From an uncultured Alphaproteobacteria bacterium (lineage in GTDB: Bacteria > Pseudomonadota > Alphaproteobacteria > Micropepsales > Micropepsaceae): DNA of 64,000 nt. This document shows, piece by piece, positions 13,740 to 24,054 of the stretch (position 1 is the stretch's first letter; each line of letters opens with the position of its first letter). The notes beneath the pieces are model-generated. The model was given only the letters and a program-made list of their open reading frames with translations. It ran no database searches and was not told the DNA's origin. The DNA is taken from NCBI GenBank assembly GCA_903897605.1, contig CAIUCH010000059.1, forward strand, positions 1 through 64,000, written 5' to 3'. Position numbers and translations under genes: made by a program.

Positions 13740-18371
<4,632 letters not shown>

Positions 18372-18517: not shown

Positions 18518-18545
18518 TTGACTCCCGGCGAGGCAAGGATAGTCT
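18518..18545 (+). promoter_or_regulatory. Candidate sigma-70 promoter of imuA-imuB-dnaE2
   Basis: TTGACT (18518-18523), a 16-base spacer and TAGTCT (18540-18545). The expected transcription start falls at about 18551-18556, on or just before the imuA ATG, which implies a leaderless or nearly leaderless mRNA. The LexA box lies directly downstream. Confidence 0.5.
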
Positions 18546-18546
18546 G

Positions 18547-18561
18547 GAACATAACATGAAC
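18547..18561. promoter_or_regulatory. LexA (SOS) box overlapping the imuA start codon
   Basis: GAAC (18547-18550), seven bases, GAAC (18558-18561): an exact match to the alphaproteobacterial LexA direct repeat (GTTC-N7-GTTC on the other strand). It spans the predicted transcription start and the ATG at 18556. LexA bound here would block initiation of the mutagenesis cassette, in line with known SOS control of imuAB-dnaE2 in Caulobacter. Confidence 0.85.
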
Positions 18562-19308
18562 AAAAGTGAAAAACTGGCAGATTTGCGCCATTTCCTCGCG
18601 CGCTACAGCCTGCCCCCCGACCGGCCGGCAATCTCGCTGGGATTTCCGGCAGCCGACGCGGTGCTGGGCGGAGGGCTCAGGCGCGGCGCCTTGCATGAAG
18701 TCTTCGCAAGCGATTGGGGCGCAAGCGGGTTCGCCGCCTGCCTCGCCATCCTGGCCGCCGGGAACAAACCGCTCTTCTGGATCCGACCGGATTATGAGGC
18801 ACTGGAATATGGCACCCTGTCGGCCACAGGTCTGCTGGAATTGGGCGGTGATCCCCGAAATCTTTTCCTGCTCCGCGCGCCCGATGCCGGCGACGCCCTG
18901 TGTGCCACCGCCGACATATTGGCCTGTCCCCATGTGGGGGCGGTGGTGCTGGAGCTTTCCGGCGCCCCCCGCTGCCTCGACCTGGTGGCAAGCCGCAGGC
19001 TGGCGCTGCTGGCGGAGGAAAGCGGCGTCACTTTATTTTTGCTGCGCGAAGGGGCGATGCCTCAGCCCAGCGCCGCCGCCACGCGCTGGCAGGTGCACAG
19101 CCGGTCCTCGCATCCGCAGAATGACGATTGGGGTGCGCCGCGCTTTGGCGCGCAACTGACCCGTCATCGCCTGGGCGCGCTCAGCGACTTCATTCTGGAA
19201 TGGGACAGCGAAAATGGAATCTTTCACGAGGCGGCGGCGCATTCTGGCGCTGTGGTTGCCGCGCCTGCCGACCGACCGGCTGACGCGTCGCGCCAAAGGC
19301 GCGCATGA
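18556..19308 (+). CDS. imuA: ImuA, RecA-like accessory factor of SOS mutagenesis
   Basis: First gene of the damage-inducible mutasome (ImuA, ImuB, DnaE2). 250 aa with a RecA-like core: [26 protein letters not shown] (residues ~26-51), then [20 protein letters not shown] and the strand [10 protein letters not shown]. The [11 protein letters not shown] segment matches SulA/ImuA-type proteins; a canonical Walker A GKT is absent, as usual for ImuA. The C-terminal tail is disordered. Its start codon lies inside a LexA box, and imuB starts 95 bases before its stop, so translation is coupled. Confidence 0.88.
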
Positions 19309-20866
19309 ACCAAACGCGGCCGCGCCTAAGACAGACGTCAAGGAAGCGCCGCTGGTCATCGCCGGCCGCGCCAGCAACGCGCTTTATGTTCATGCCCTGA
19401 ACCGGAGCGCCCAACGGCTGGGTCTGCATCCCGGCCAACCGCTCGCCAATGCCCGCGCCATGATCGAAGGGCTTGCGGTCGTGCCCGCTGATGAAAAAGC
19501 GGATCTGGAATTGTTGGAAACCATCGCCGACTGGTGCGACCGCTTCACGCCGTTGGTGGCGGGCGACCCGCCCGATGGCCTGCTGCTGGACATTACCGGC
19601 GTCGCGCATCTGTTTGGCGGCGAAGTGGCGATGCTCAACCATGTGCGCGAGAAGATCGCGGCCCAGGGCTTTGCCGTGCAGGCCGCCATCGCGGGCACCT
19701 CGCTGGCGGCGCGGGCGCTGGCCCGCTACGCCAACGGCACCATCGCACTGCCCGGCGCAGAAGCGATGAGTTTGGCGCCGCTTCCCATCGCGGCGCTGGA
19801 TTGCGGAGAGGAAAAATTGCGGGCGCTGAAACGCGCCGGCCTCAAAACCTTTGCCCAGGTCGCGGACCGTGGCCGCGCCGAGCTGGCCGCGCGGCTGGGC
19901 GCCGATTTCCTCACCCGCCTGCATGTGATGCTGGGTGCGGAGGAAAAACCGTTGACGCCACGGCGGCCCCTGCCCGATCTCAGTGCCGCGCAACGCTTTG
20001 CCGAGCCGGTGGTCACACAGGAGGTGATCGCCAAAAGCCTTCACGCACTCGCCACCGCCTTGAGCGAGATCCTGGAACGCCAGGGCCAGGGCTTGCGACT
20101 TCTGGAAGCGGTGTTCTTTCGCGCCGACGGCAAGGTGGAGCGCATTACGGTGCGGACCGGTGCACCCTTGCGCGATCCGGCCGTGATGCTGCGGCTTCTC
20201 AATCAGCGGCTGGAGGCCTTGGCCGATCCGCTGGATCCCGGTTTCGGTTTCGACCTGATCCGGCTGGAAGCGCGCCTGGCCGAGGAAACCCATCCCGCCG
20301 AAGCCAGCTTCGACACCGATGAGAATGCCCGCTGGCAGATCGCCTTTCTGGCGGATCGCCTCTCTGCGCGTTTCGGCGAACATCGGATGCAGCGTTTCGT
20401 GCCCCAGGACACCCATATCCCCGAAGCGCAAAGCGTGGCGATACCCGCCCAGGATCGCGATTTCGAGGGAAACTGGACACGCAAGCGCCGCGAAAACGAT
20501 CCGCCATTGCGGCCTTTGCGGATGATGGAAAAGCCGGAAGAAATTAAAGATGGGCTTCCCGTGGCGCCCGACGGACCGCCAAAATTCTTTCATTGGCGGC
20601 AATGCAAATACGACGTCGTTCGTGCCGAAGGCCCGGAACGGATCGCGCTGGAATGGTGGAAGGAAGATCTGCGTCGGCGCCTGATTCCGCACCGTGAACA
20701 AAAGCGGAGGATCAGGCTCGGCGTGGCGCCAAAACTGTTACCTCCCAGTCGGGACTATTTCCGCGTCGAGACCCACCAAGGGTTGCGCTTCTGGCTTTAT
20801 CGCGACGGGCAATATCAGCACAACGGCCTTGCTCCACGCTGGTACATGCACGGTGTGTTTGCATGA
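19214..20866 (+). CDS. imuB: ImuB, Y-family polymerase-like mutasome scaffold
   Basis: A 550-aa Y-family polymerase homologue that in characterised systems lacks polymerase activity and bridges the beta clamp to DnaE2. N-terminal palm/finger part: [52 protein letters not shown] (the DITG strand without the acidic pair of active polymerases), AIAGTSLAARALARY. Little-finger and C-terminal regions follow, ending in RDYFRVETHQGLRFWLYRDG and PRWYMHGVFA, typical of ImuB tails. It overlaps imuA by 95 bases and dnaE2 by 4 (ATGA). Confidence 0.93.
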   Translation: MESFTRRRRILALWLPRLPTDRLTRRAKGAHEPNAAAPKTDVKEAPLVIAGRASNALYVHALNRSAQRLGLHPGQPLANARAMIEGLAVVPADEKADLELLETIADWCDRFTPLVAGDPPDGLLLDITGVAHLFGGEVAMLNHVREKIAAQGFAVQAAIAGTSLAARALARYANGTIALPGAEAMSLAPLPIAALDCGEEKLRALKRAGLKTFAQVADRGRAELAARLGADFLTRLHVMLGAEEKPLTPRRPLPDLSAAQRFAEPVVTQEVIAKSLHALATALSEILERQGQGLRLLEAVFFRADGKVERITVRTGAPLRDPAVMLRLLNQRLEALADPLDPGFGFDLIRLEARLAEETHPAEASFDTDENARWQIAFLADRLSARFGEHRMQRFVPQDTHIPEAQSVAIPAQDRDFEGNWTRKRRENDPPLRPLRMMEKPEEIKDGLPVAPDGPPKFFHWRQCKYDVVRAEGPERIALEWWKEDLRRRLIPHREQKRRIRLGVAPKLLPPSRDYFRVETHQGLRFWLYRDGQYQHNGLAPRWYMHGVFA

Positions 20867-23800
20867 GATATGCGGAACTGGCCGTCACCACCAATTATTC
20901 CTTTCTGCGCGGCGCATCGCATCCTGGTCAGTTTGTCGAAGAGGCAAATACCCTGGGCTACGCCGCCATCGGGATCGCCGATCGCAACAGCTTGGCTGGC
21001 ATCGTGCGAGCTTATGAAGCCGGGTTGAAGTTGAGGCCGGGCACCCCGCCGCGCCTTCTGGTAGGCGCGCGACTTGTCTTTCGGGACGGCACACCCGACA
21101 TCCTGGCCTATCCGCGGGATCGGGCCGCTTATGGGCGGCTGTGCCAACTACTTTCGCTTGGCAAATCGAGGGCGCCGAAAGGCGAATGTTTTCTCGATCT
21201 GACCGACTTCATGAAGTTCCGGGAAAATTTGCTCGCAATCGTAATGCCTTCAACGCAAATCGAGAACGCGCGAGCCGTACTGAGGCAATTCGACGGCACG
21301 GCGTGGTTGGCCGCTTCGATGCTGTATGACGGCGAGGATCGTCGTCGCCTTAGGGCGTTACAAAAGCTCGCGCAAGAAACGGGCACGCGCCTGATCGCAG
21401 TCAACGATACGCTATACCACAACGTCAAGCAGCGAGAATTGCAAGATGTCGTCACCTGTATCCGCGAACACACCACGCTGACTGCTGCGGGGAAGCGGCT
21501 TAAGGCCAATGCGGAACGGCATCTGAAGCTCCCCACGGAAATGGCGCGCCTGTTTCGTGCCGCGCCCGCAGCGATCGCAGAAACGATCCAGTTTGCGGAC
21601 AGAATCAGCTTCTCCCTCGATCAGATCAAACAGAATTATCCGCACGAGCCTGTGCCGCCCGGCAAGACGGCCGACGGACATCTTCGGGATCTGACCAAAA
21701 AGGGTCTCAAGCGCCGCTATCCCGAAAAAACACCTTTCAAGGTCGCACGTCAGGCTGTGAAAGAATTGCGCTTCATCGCCGGACATGAGATCGCCCATTA
21801 CTTCCTGACCGTGCATGACATCGTGAAATATGCAGAAAGCCGAGACATCCTCTGCCAGGGGCGAGGCTCCGCGGCAAACTCCACGGTTTGTTATCTTCTG
21901 GGCGTCACCGCTATCGATCCTAATAAATTCGAAGTGTTGTTCGAGCGTTTTCTCAGCGCCGAACGGCGCGAACCACCCGACATCGACGTGGATTTCGAGC
22001 ATGAGCGGCGCGAAGAAGTCATCCAGCATATTTATCGGCGTTATACGCGACGGCGTGCCGCGCTGACAGCAACCGTCATCAGCTACCGTTCCCGAAGCGC
22101 CATTCGTGAAGTGGGTAAGGTCTTCGGTCTGACCGATGACGTCACCGGCAAACTGGCAGATACCGTGTGGGGACATCATGGAGATGGTTTAGAAGAGCAT
22201 CAGGTACGGCAGGGCGGGTGGGATCCTGGAAACGCGACCGTTGCGCGCGCCGTCTATTTCGCCGGAGAGTTGACAGGGTTTCCCCGGCACCTGTCGCAGC
22301 ATGTCGGCGGCTTTGTGCTGACGGAAGACAGTCTCGATACCATCGTTCCCATTGGTCCCGCAGCGATGGAAGACCGGAGCTTCATTGAATGGGACAAGGA
22401 CGATCTCGACACGTTGCGCATCATGAAGGTGGATGTGCTGGCGTTGGGCATGCTCACCTGCATTCGCAAGGCCTTCCGGCTGATCGATTCCTACGCCTAT
22501 GGCGGCGCGACGCCGTTGGAATTGGCAACAGTCCCGAAAGAAGACGAGCGTGTCTACGACATGCTGTGCAAGGCCGATGCTATCGGCGTCTTTCAGGTGG
22601 AAAGCCGCGCCCAGATGAACATGCTACCGCGCCTGCGTCCGCGCAAATTCTACGATCTGGTAGTGGAAGTGGCGATCGTGCGTCCCGGCCCGATTCAGGG
22701 CGGCATGGTGCATCCCTATCTCAAGCGCCGGAAAGATCCATCGCTGATCAAATTTCCTGCGCCGCATCCTGACCATGGCAGGCCCGATGAGCTGTACGGC
22801 GTTCTGGAAAAAACCATGGGTGTCCCACTGTTCCAGGAACAGGCGATGCGGCTCGCCATCGTGGCCGCAAAATTCACCGCCGACGAGGCCAACGGCCTGC
22901 GCCGCGCCATGGCCACCTTCCGCCATCTCGGCACCATCGGAACCTTCCGGGAGAAATTCGTCAGCCGCATGATTGCGCGCGGCTATGACGAGGAATTCGT
23001 CCTTTCTTGTTTTGAGCAGATCAAGGGTTTCGGCTCTTACGGCTTTCCCGAAAGCCATGCCGCCAGCTTCGCGCTGCTGGTCTACATCTCCGCCTGGATC
23101 AAAAAATTCCACCCCGTTGCCTTCGCAGCTGCCTTGCTCAATTCCCAGCCTATGGGATTTTATGCACCTGCCGAAATCGTGCGCGACGCCCGCGAACATC
23201 AAGTGACGATCCTGGCGCCCGACGCCGCTTTCAGCGATTGGGATTCGACCTTGGAGCGCGACGGCAAAGGCGAGATATGCCTGCGCCTGGGCCTGCGCCA
23301 GGTCGATGGAATCAAGGAAGCGGAAGCCGGCGCGATCATGGACAATCGCGGGTACGGCTATCGCGACTTCGCCGACTTCGCGCGCCGCACATCGCTATCA
23401 AAGCGCGCACTGGTGATCCTGGCCGAGGCCGATGCCTTTCGCGGTTTCGGTCTGGGCCGCCGCGAAGGCTTGTGGGCGGTGCGCCGCCTGCCGGACGACA
23501 AGCCGCTGCCTTTGTTCGCGCGGCTGGCGGCGCCGGACCAAGGTGCGGAAAGCATCGCGCCCCTGCCGGCGATGGCGTTGTCGGAACATGTTCTCACCGA
23601 CTATCAGACCATCCGGCTGTCGCTGAAAGGCTATCCCACCCAATTCCTGCGTTCACGGTTTGACGAAGAAGGCATCACGTCTTGCAAAGGCGTGGGCGAC
23701 CTCGCCGACGGCGCCCCGGTCCGCTGCGCCGGCGTGGTGCTGGTGCGCCAGCGTCCCGGCGAAGGCACCGCCATCTTCGTCACCCTGTCCGACGAAACCG

Positions 23801-24054
23801 GGGTCTGCAATGTCGTGATCTGGGAGCGGATGTTCAAACAGTATCGCAAGGAAGTGATGGGCGCGCGCCTGCTCATGGCGGAAGGCAAGGTCCAGAAAAG
23901 TCCGGAAGGCGTGGTGCATCTGATGGCGACACGATTGATCGATCGCAGCCGGGACTTGAATCTCTTATCCGGCGACGTGCTGCCTCCCACGCCGCCCACG
24001 CATCGTCATCCCCGCAATGTACGGGTGCTGCCGCCCAGCCGCGATTTTCACTAG
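20863..24054 (+). CDS. dnaE2: Error-prone DNA polymerase III alpha subunit
   Basis: Translesion C-family polymerase, 1063 aa, the usual DnaE2 length. An N-terminal PHP domain (YAELAVTTNYSFLRGASHPGQ) is followed by palm motifs CQGRGSAANSTVCYLLG and PPDIDVDFEHERREEV (catalytic Asp375 and Asp377), fingers with QVESRAQMNMLPRLRP and RPGPIQGGMVHPYL, a helix-hairpin-helix region and a C-terminal OB fold (GVVLVRQRPGEGTAIFVTLSDE). It ends with LPPSRDFH. It overlaps imuB by 4 bases. The 5-prime ~1.8 kb is clearly less GC-rich than the 3-prime part (rows at 47-48% against 68%), suggesting a mosaic gene. Confidence 0.96.
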   Translation: MRYAELAVTTNYSFLRGASHPGQFVEEANTLGYAAIGIADRNSLAGIVRAYEAGLKLRPGTPPRLLVGARLVFRDGTPDILAYPRDRAAYGRLCQLLSLGKSRAPKGECFLDLTDFMKFRENLLAIVMPSTQIENARAVLRQFDGTAWLAASMLYDGEDRRRLRALQKLAQETGTRLIAVNDTLYHNVKQRELQDVVTCIREHTTLTAAGKRLKANAERHLKLPTEMARLFRAAPAAIAETIQFADRISFSLDQIKQNYPHEPVPPGKTADGHLRDLTKKGLKRRYPEKTPFKVARQAVKELRFIAGHEIAHYFLTVHDIVKYAESRDILCQGRGSAANSTVCYLLGVTAIDPNKFEVLFERFLSAERREPPDIDVDFEHERREEVIQHIYRRYTRRRAALTATVISYRSRSAIREVGKVFGLTDDVTGKLADTVWGHHGDGLEEHQVRQGGWDPGNATVARAVYFAGELTGFPRHLSQHVGGFVLTEDSLDTIVPIGPAAMEDRSFIEWDKDDLDTLRIMKVDVLALGMLTCIRKAFRLIDSYAYGGATPLELATVPKEDERVYDMLCKADAIGVFQVESRAQMNMLPRLRPRKFYDLVVEVAIVRPGPIQGGMVHPYLKRRKDPSLIKFPAPHPDHGRPDELYGVLEKTMGVPLFQEQAMRLAIVAAKFTADEANGLRRAMATFRHLGTIGTFREKFVSRMIARGYDEEFVLSCFEQIKGFGSYGFPESHAASFALLVYISAWIKKFHPVAFAAALLNSQPMGFYAPAEIVRDAREHQVTILAPDAAFSDWDSTLERDGKGEICLRLGLRQVDGIKEAEAGAIMDNRGYGYRDFADFARRTSLSKRALVILAEADAFRGFGLGRREGLWAVRRLPDDKPLPLFARLAAPDQGAESIAPLPAMALSEHVLTDYQTIRLSLKGYPTQFLRSRFDEEGITSCKGVGDLADGAPVRCAGVVLVRQRPGEGTAIFVTLSDETGVCNVVIWERMFKQYRKEVMGARLLMAEGKVQKSPEGVVHLMATRLIDRSRDLNLLSGDVLPPTPPTHRHPRNVRVLPPSRDFH

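Follow-up and report, generated by a model that had tools for sequence, protein, structure and literature searches.

A putative LexA operator spanning the start codon of imuA and a predicted near-leaderless mutasome mRNA in an alphaproteobacterial clade

In the 64,000-nt stretch of DNA analyzed here (the window, from an uncultured alphaproteobacterium of the family Micropepsaceae), the start codon of imuA lies inside a LexA-type operator that directly follows a −35/−10 pair, and this arrangement is conserved across a clade of relatives. We assign a probability of roughly 80% to the whole account, in which a LexA-operated promoter with the start codon in its operator gives rise to a near-leaderless mutasome mRNA. 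A σ70-type promoter, TTGACT-N16-TAGTCT, would drive the SOS mutasome operon imuA-imuB-dnaE2, with the LexA operator placed directly 3′ of the −10 element and over the transcription start, where bound LexA would cover transcription start and initiation codon together. Upon DNA damage, RecA-stimulated cleavage of LexA would free the promoter, and the mRNA would begin about 3 to 5 nt before the AUG. As such a leader offers no space for a Shine-Dalgarno sequence, translation would probably follow the leaderless route, with 70S ribosomes initiating at the 5′ AUG.

Layout of the imuA promoter and its operon

The features of the region are as follows.
18518..18523, plus strand: −35 element TTGACT, within the clade-conserved TTGACTC (from the sequence and the clade alignment)
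18540..18545, plus strand: −10 element TAGTCT, where most relatives have CATTAT or similar (from the sequence and the clade alignment)
18547..18561, plus strand: LexA operator GAACATAACATGAAC, GAAC-N7-GAAC, of the alphaproteobacterial type (from conservation, the boxes at lexA, the literature, and its breakage in degenerate copies)
18551..18553, plus strand: predicted transcription start region, within the operator (from the position of the −10 element)
18556..19308, plus strand: imuA, start codon in the operator (from the ImuA_translesion profile, the neighboring genes, and codon periodicity)
19214..20866, plus strand: imuB, Y-family polymerase-like (from the Pfam IMS domain)
20863..24054, plus strand: dnaE2, error-prone DNA polymerase (PRK05672, 1371.6 bits against a cutoff of 939)
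13740..18371, minus strand: divergent gltB-like gene, likely start ATG at 18371

The original prediction placed GAAC-N7-GAAC across the ATG of imuA and TTGACT-16-TAGTCT directly 5′ of it. In the window, TTGACT (18518 to 18523), a 16-nt spacer, TAGTCT (18540 to 18545), GAAC-N7-GAAC (18547 to 18561), and the ATG (18556 to 18558) follow one another so that the placement of the box is correct to the base, and the promoter coordinates agree as well, with both elements conserved in the clade. The second half-site of the operator supplies the G of the ATG and the entire second codon (AAC, Asn). Since TAGTCT matches TATAAT at only three of six positions and a mechanical σ70 scan returned no promoter at imuA, the promoter assignment rests on conservation.

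Downstream, the ImuA, ImuB, and DnaE2 families occur in sequence, which is the order of the imuA-imuB-dnaE2 cassette. DnaE2 is the one member that passes its NCBIfam curated cutoff; ImuA is identified by a subthreshold match to ImuA_translesion (E value of 3.6e-11 and 43.3 bits, under the curated cutoff of 150 bits) together with its neighbors, and ImuB by its Pfam IMS domain. If imuB uses its first ATG, its coding region shares 95 nt (19214 to 19308) with imuA in a different frame, and the imuB stop and dnaE2 start overlap as ATGA (20863 to 20866). On the other side, the divergent gene, which we take to be gltB-like and to encode the large subunit of glutamate synthase, is present at all 17 clade loci checked, its likely ATG being about 184 nt from imuA. 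A TTG start for this gene at 18563 on the minus strand, across the imuA promoter, was rejected as an artifact of the ORF caller, the conserved protein starting at 18371. In part of the clade (L013 to L020 and L030), a block like ATGCAATTTGAGAATGATTCACAACAA is conserved 5′ of the −35 element, about −75 to −50 from imuA, and may serve the divergent gene as a promoter element.

Operator conservation and probable LexA control

ImuA was found in 81 of the 96 genomes of the window's family, and the clade set comprises 23 intact imuA loci from 22 genomes in a gap-free alignment anchored on the ATG. In the ImuA tree, the proteins from these 22 genomes group together as a single clade with an SH-aLRT support of 100 (22 rows in the tree, L077, the second locus of G077, being left out). 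Both GAAC half-sites and the ATG, at box positions 10 to 12, are present at 23/23 loci, as is AAC at codon 2. The promoter is held at a constant position, with TTGACTC at −38 to −32 and the −10 element at −16 to −11: the C at the seventh position of the former and A2 and T6 of the latter are each found at all 23 loci, and TTGACT is in register at 19 of the 23 at its weakest columns, most of the rest being shifted by one base. Three further copies of imuA in this group are degenerate, one with in-frame stops (L061), one with an early stop in the frame of the operator ATG (L325), and one with an in-frame stop (L326). Each has retained the ATG and has one broken half-site (AAAC, AAAC, and GAAT, respectively), so that the box is intact in 23/23 intact genes versus 0/3 degenerate ones; by hand arithmetic, this split would arise once in 2600 if the copies were independent, a figure limited by the half-site change that L061 and L325 share, possibly through one origin.

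The box agrees with what is known of LexA in this class. The literature gives GTTC-N7-GTTC, which is GAAC-N7-GAAC on the other strand, as the alphaproteobacterial LexA motif and describes the mutagenesis cassette as persistently LexA regulated (PMC3323433); it also places imuA of Caulobacter crescentus under LexA control (PMC12907096), with induction early in the SOS response (PMC12907096, PMC12700426). With the imuA-imuB-dnaE2 cassette of C. crescentus, the window shares the operon, the operator type, and the expected SOS control; in the window, the operator overlies the initiation codon. Within the window's family, the lexA promoters carry the box shortly upstream of the gene at 10/10 loci examined. 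SOS control of imuAB-dnaE2, which the original prediction took as established, is supported by the motif match, by the boxes at lexA, and by the cassette literature cited above.

The box by itself is weak as a search pattern. It occurs once in the window versus a mean of 1.26 in shuffled sequences (at least one match in 72 of 100 shuffles), and the genome scan proposed earlier as a way of defining the regulon found no enrichment, with 59 matches in the window's own genome versus 85 for the reversed control. As evidence, the box alone is no better than chance, and its enrichment as proof of a regulon is ruled out by the same counts. The composite of promoter, box, and ATG is beyond chance: TTGAC-N20-27-GAACNNANCATGAAC has one match in the own genome and no control match, and it is found in 17 of 385 genomes of the class, where the reversed control gave 0 in all. 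Among the own-genome boxes inspected, two more lie at plausible SOS genes, namely GAACATAATAGGAAC, with TTGACT upstream, at L108 and GAACGGGTTAGGAAC at L117; from their sequences, we take these genes to be ssb-like and recA-like, respectively. In another family, the ATG of a composite match (L219) opens a long ORF, presumably the ParE subunit of topoisomerase IV.

These background counts, and the fact that no recognizable lexA was found in the own draft genome, are what could be said for a chance match and for an imuA free of LexA control in this organism. We regard that reading as exceedingly improbable in view of the conservation of the box in all 23 clade loci, its breakage in all three degenerate copies, the same box in front of lexA, and the presence of an exact box, whichever its orientation, at 79 of the 84 ImuA loci surveyed across the class. 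We take the missing lexA to be a gap in the draft, since the gene is present in 87 of the 96 family genomes, among them the three closest sisters (G073, G033, and G032); on the same count, we reject lexA loss as a trait of the lineage.

Start codon and predicted leader of imuA

In the window, there is no in-frame ATG, GTG, or TTG 5′ of 18556 back to the upstream stop. Across the clade loci, variation at codon positions 1, 2, and 3 is 0.206, 0.239, and 0.435 for codons 3 to 9 and 0.135, 0.110, and 0.406 for codons 10 to 20, while pseudocodons at −60 to −40 vary evenly (∼0.65). Periodicity from codon 3 onward means that translation begins before codon 3. This bears on the proposal that the true start is a downstream TTG at codon 10, present in 18 of the 23 loci, and that the ATG is mere operator sequence, as it is in most Bradyrhizobium and Afipia loci, where imuA does not start at the operator ATG. 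With coding periodicity already seen across the preceding codons 3 to 9, with residue K6 retained in the clade, and with the TTG lacking, as read from the sequence, a recognizable Shine-Dalgarno sequence at the usual distance, we consider such a start very unlikely, and the ATG claimed by the original prediction withstands this challenge. Some relatives have upstream in-frame starts within or above the promoter, for example, an ATG at −75, and could in principle make a longer ImuA.

Transcription usually starts about 7 nt (±1) past the 3′ end of the −10 element, which predicts an imuA 5′ end at −5 to −3 (18551 to 18553), inside the operator. The transcript had been proposed to be leaderless; the 5′ end close to the ATG stands as a prediction from the position of the −10 element, and the leader comes out at 3 to 5 nt rather than zero, which would make the mRNA near leaderless rather than proven leaderless. 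No Shine-Dalgarno sequence was seen in the predicted transcript when clade loci were scanned for anti-Shine-Dalgarno energy: the clade mean is −3.2 over −20 to −4, compared to −2.5 for 2000 random 17-mers of the window, and −0.6 over −12 to −4. The corresponding mean is −6.5 over the 51 of 61 loci L158 to L218 in which an ATG was found, mostly from Bradyrhizobium and Afipia, and 7 of 11 loci with an inverted box score −6 or lower.

An alternative is that the operon is LexA controlled and its main transcript comes from farther upstream, leaving the ATG behind a conventional leader. The purines that could speak for it, GG at −20/−19 in 20 of the 23 clade loci and AAGGA at 18535 to 18539 in the window, form a run that stops some 16 nt short of the ATG, which is farther than usual for a Shine-Dalgarno sequence, and that sits within the promoter spacer. 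Upstream in-frame starts in some relatives would also fit a leader, but the conserved feature is the −35/−10 pair at a fixed distance from the box, and the clade energy is near background, whereas values between −6 and −9 are the rule among leadered relatives. We therefore judge a leadered mRNA to be unlikely and favor the near-leaderless one, which has the AUG start expected of leaderless mRNAs at 23/23 clade loci. The leaderless route is available, as such mRNAs are common in Alphaproteobacteria, with 375 reported in C. crescentus (PMC4117421) and 171 in Sinorhizobium meliloti (PMC3616915). Those transcripts, likewise alphaproteobacterial, begin at the start codon, with leaders that were mapped and are 0 nt by definition, whereas the leader of the window's imuA is predicted and 3 to 5 nt long. 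The elements behind the original proposal that LexA would cover transcription start and start codon at once, namely the LexA box, the promoter, and the start codon inside the operator, are each supported comparatively by clade conservation, the lexA boxes, codon periodicity, and the degenerate copies.

Relatives, origin, and meaning of the layout

A nearly identical module, TTGACTC followed by GAACATATCATGAACAA, stands in front of imuA in Bradyrhizobium and Afipia and is shared with the window; there, the box is a few bases farther from the −35 element, and at most loci imuA starts about 80 to 100 nt downstream, behind a strong, AAGGAGCGGCGCATG-like Shine-Dalgarno sequence. The operator ATG is kept nonetheless and opens a mini-ORF, mostly ATGAACAAATGA (MNK-stop), at the predicted 5′ end (L161 to L218), and at 4 of 46 loci (L183, L184, L195, and L217) it is in frame with imuA with no intervening stop. 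Hence, conservation of the ATG alone is no proof of a start codon; the ATG is a feature of the operator itself, and so it would have been captured as the imuA start codon. Selection for the mini-ORF was considered and rejected: that it ends at codon 3 or 4 at most of the 46 loci looks striking, but TRR is the usual fourth codon and stands for a stop in three of its four forms, which by our reasoning leaves no case for selection.

Elsewhere in the window's family, imuA may start just after the box (one base past it in L032 and L037), may have an inverted box beside the −35 element with a leader, or may lie behind a DNA glycosylase gene and have no box of its own. In the sister lineages of this last kind, an HhH-GPD base-excision DNA glycosylase ends just 5′ of imuA (L177, 4248 to 4973, Pfam E value of 1.5e-11), with similar upstream ORF ends in L035, L036, L041, L043, L045, L158, L160, L163, L170, and L175, which suggests a glycosylase-imuA-imuB-dnaE2 operon. 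No relative was found on viral contigs, and plasmids hold distant ImuA relatives only.

Beyond these groups, 84 further ImuA loci of the class, chosen from the 183 of 387 genomes with an ImuA match so that most families contribute one or a few, comprise 68 with a same-orientation box, 4 with an in-frame ATG inside the box (one of them, L302, doubtful because of later in-frame starts), 7 with an inverted box, and 5 with none. Five changes are required to account for the in-box state on a tree built from 104 ImuA proteins. Where class-wide boxes contain an ATG, it is in frame with imuA in 5 of 12 cases (among them L253, which stops at codon 4), near the third expected by chance; outside the clade, operator ATGs are thus not enriched for the imuA frame, and recurrent captures can be explained without selection. 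Capture is easy, and what is notable is that the clade has retained it over the full span of its ImuA divergence. It is possible, though rather unlikely in our view, that a CATGAAC-type operator just 3′ of the −10 element had its ATG captured repeatedly and that the fusion persisted in the clade because an operon that must be silent until DNA damage is well served by near-leaderless translation. If true, a single 15-bp element would combine the repressor site, the start of transcription, and the initiation codon, and operator mutations would also alter the start of the protein.

As an SOS switch, the arrangement is ordinary except for its unusual compactness. It gives a known SOS promoter a new layout without amounting to a new system, and as a variant of known SOS control it is real and modest. 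Judging by titles and the beginnings of abstracts, we found no description in the literature of a LexA operator that spans the start codon of imuA. The case shows how a repressor operator can be fused with a start codon and ties codon 2 of ImuA (Asn, 23/23) to the operator sequence rather than to a need of the protein. Starts in the box, starts just after it, inverted boxes with a Shine-Dalgarno sequence, and long leaders together make up a natural series that could be used to measure how loss of the leader affects mutasome expression. Our results also suggest that the position of the operator should be used when imuA start sites are called across Alphaproteobacteria.
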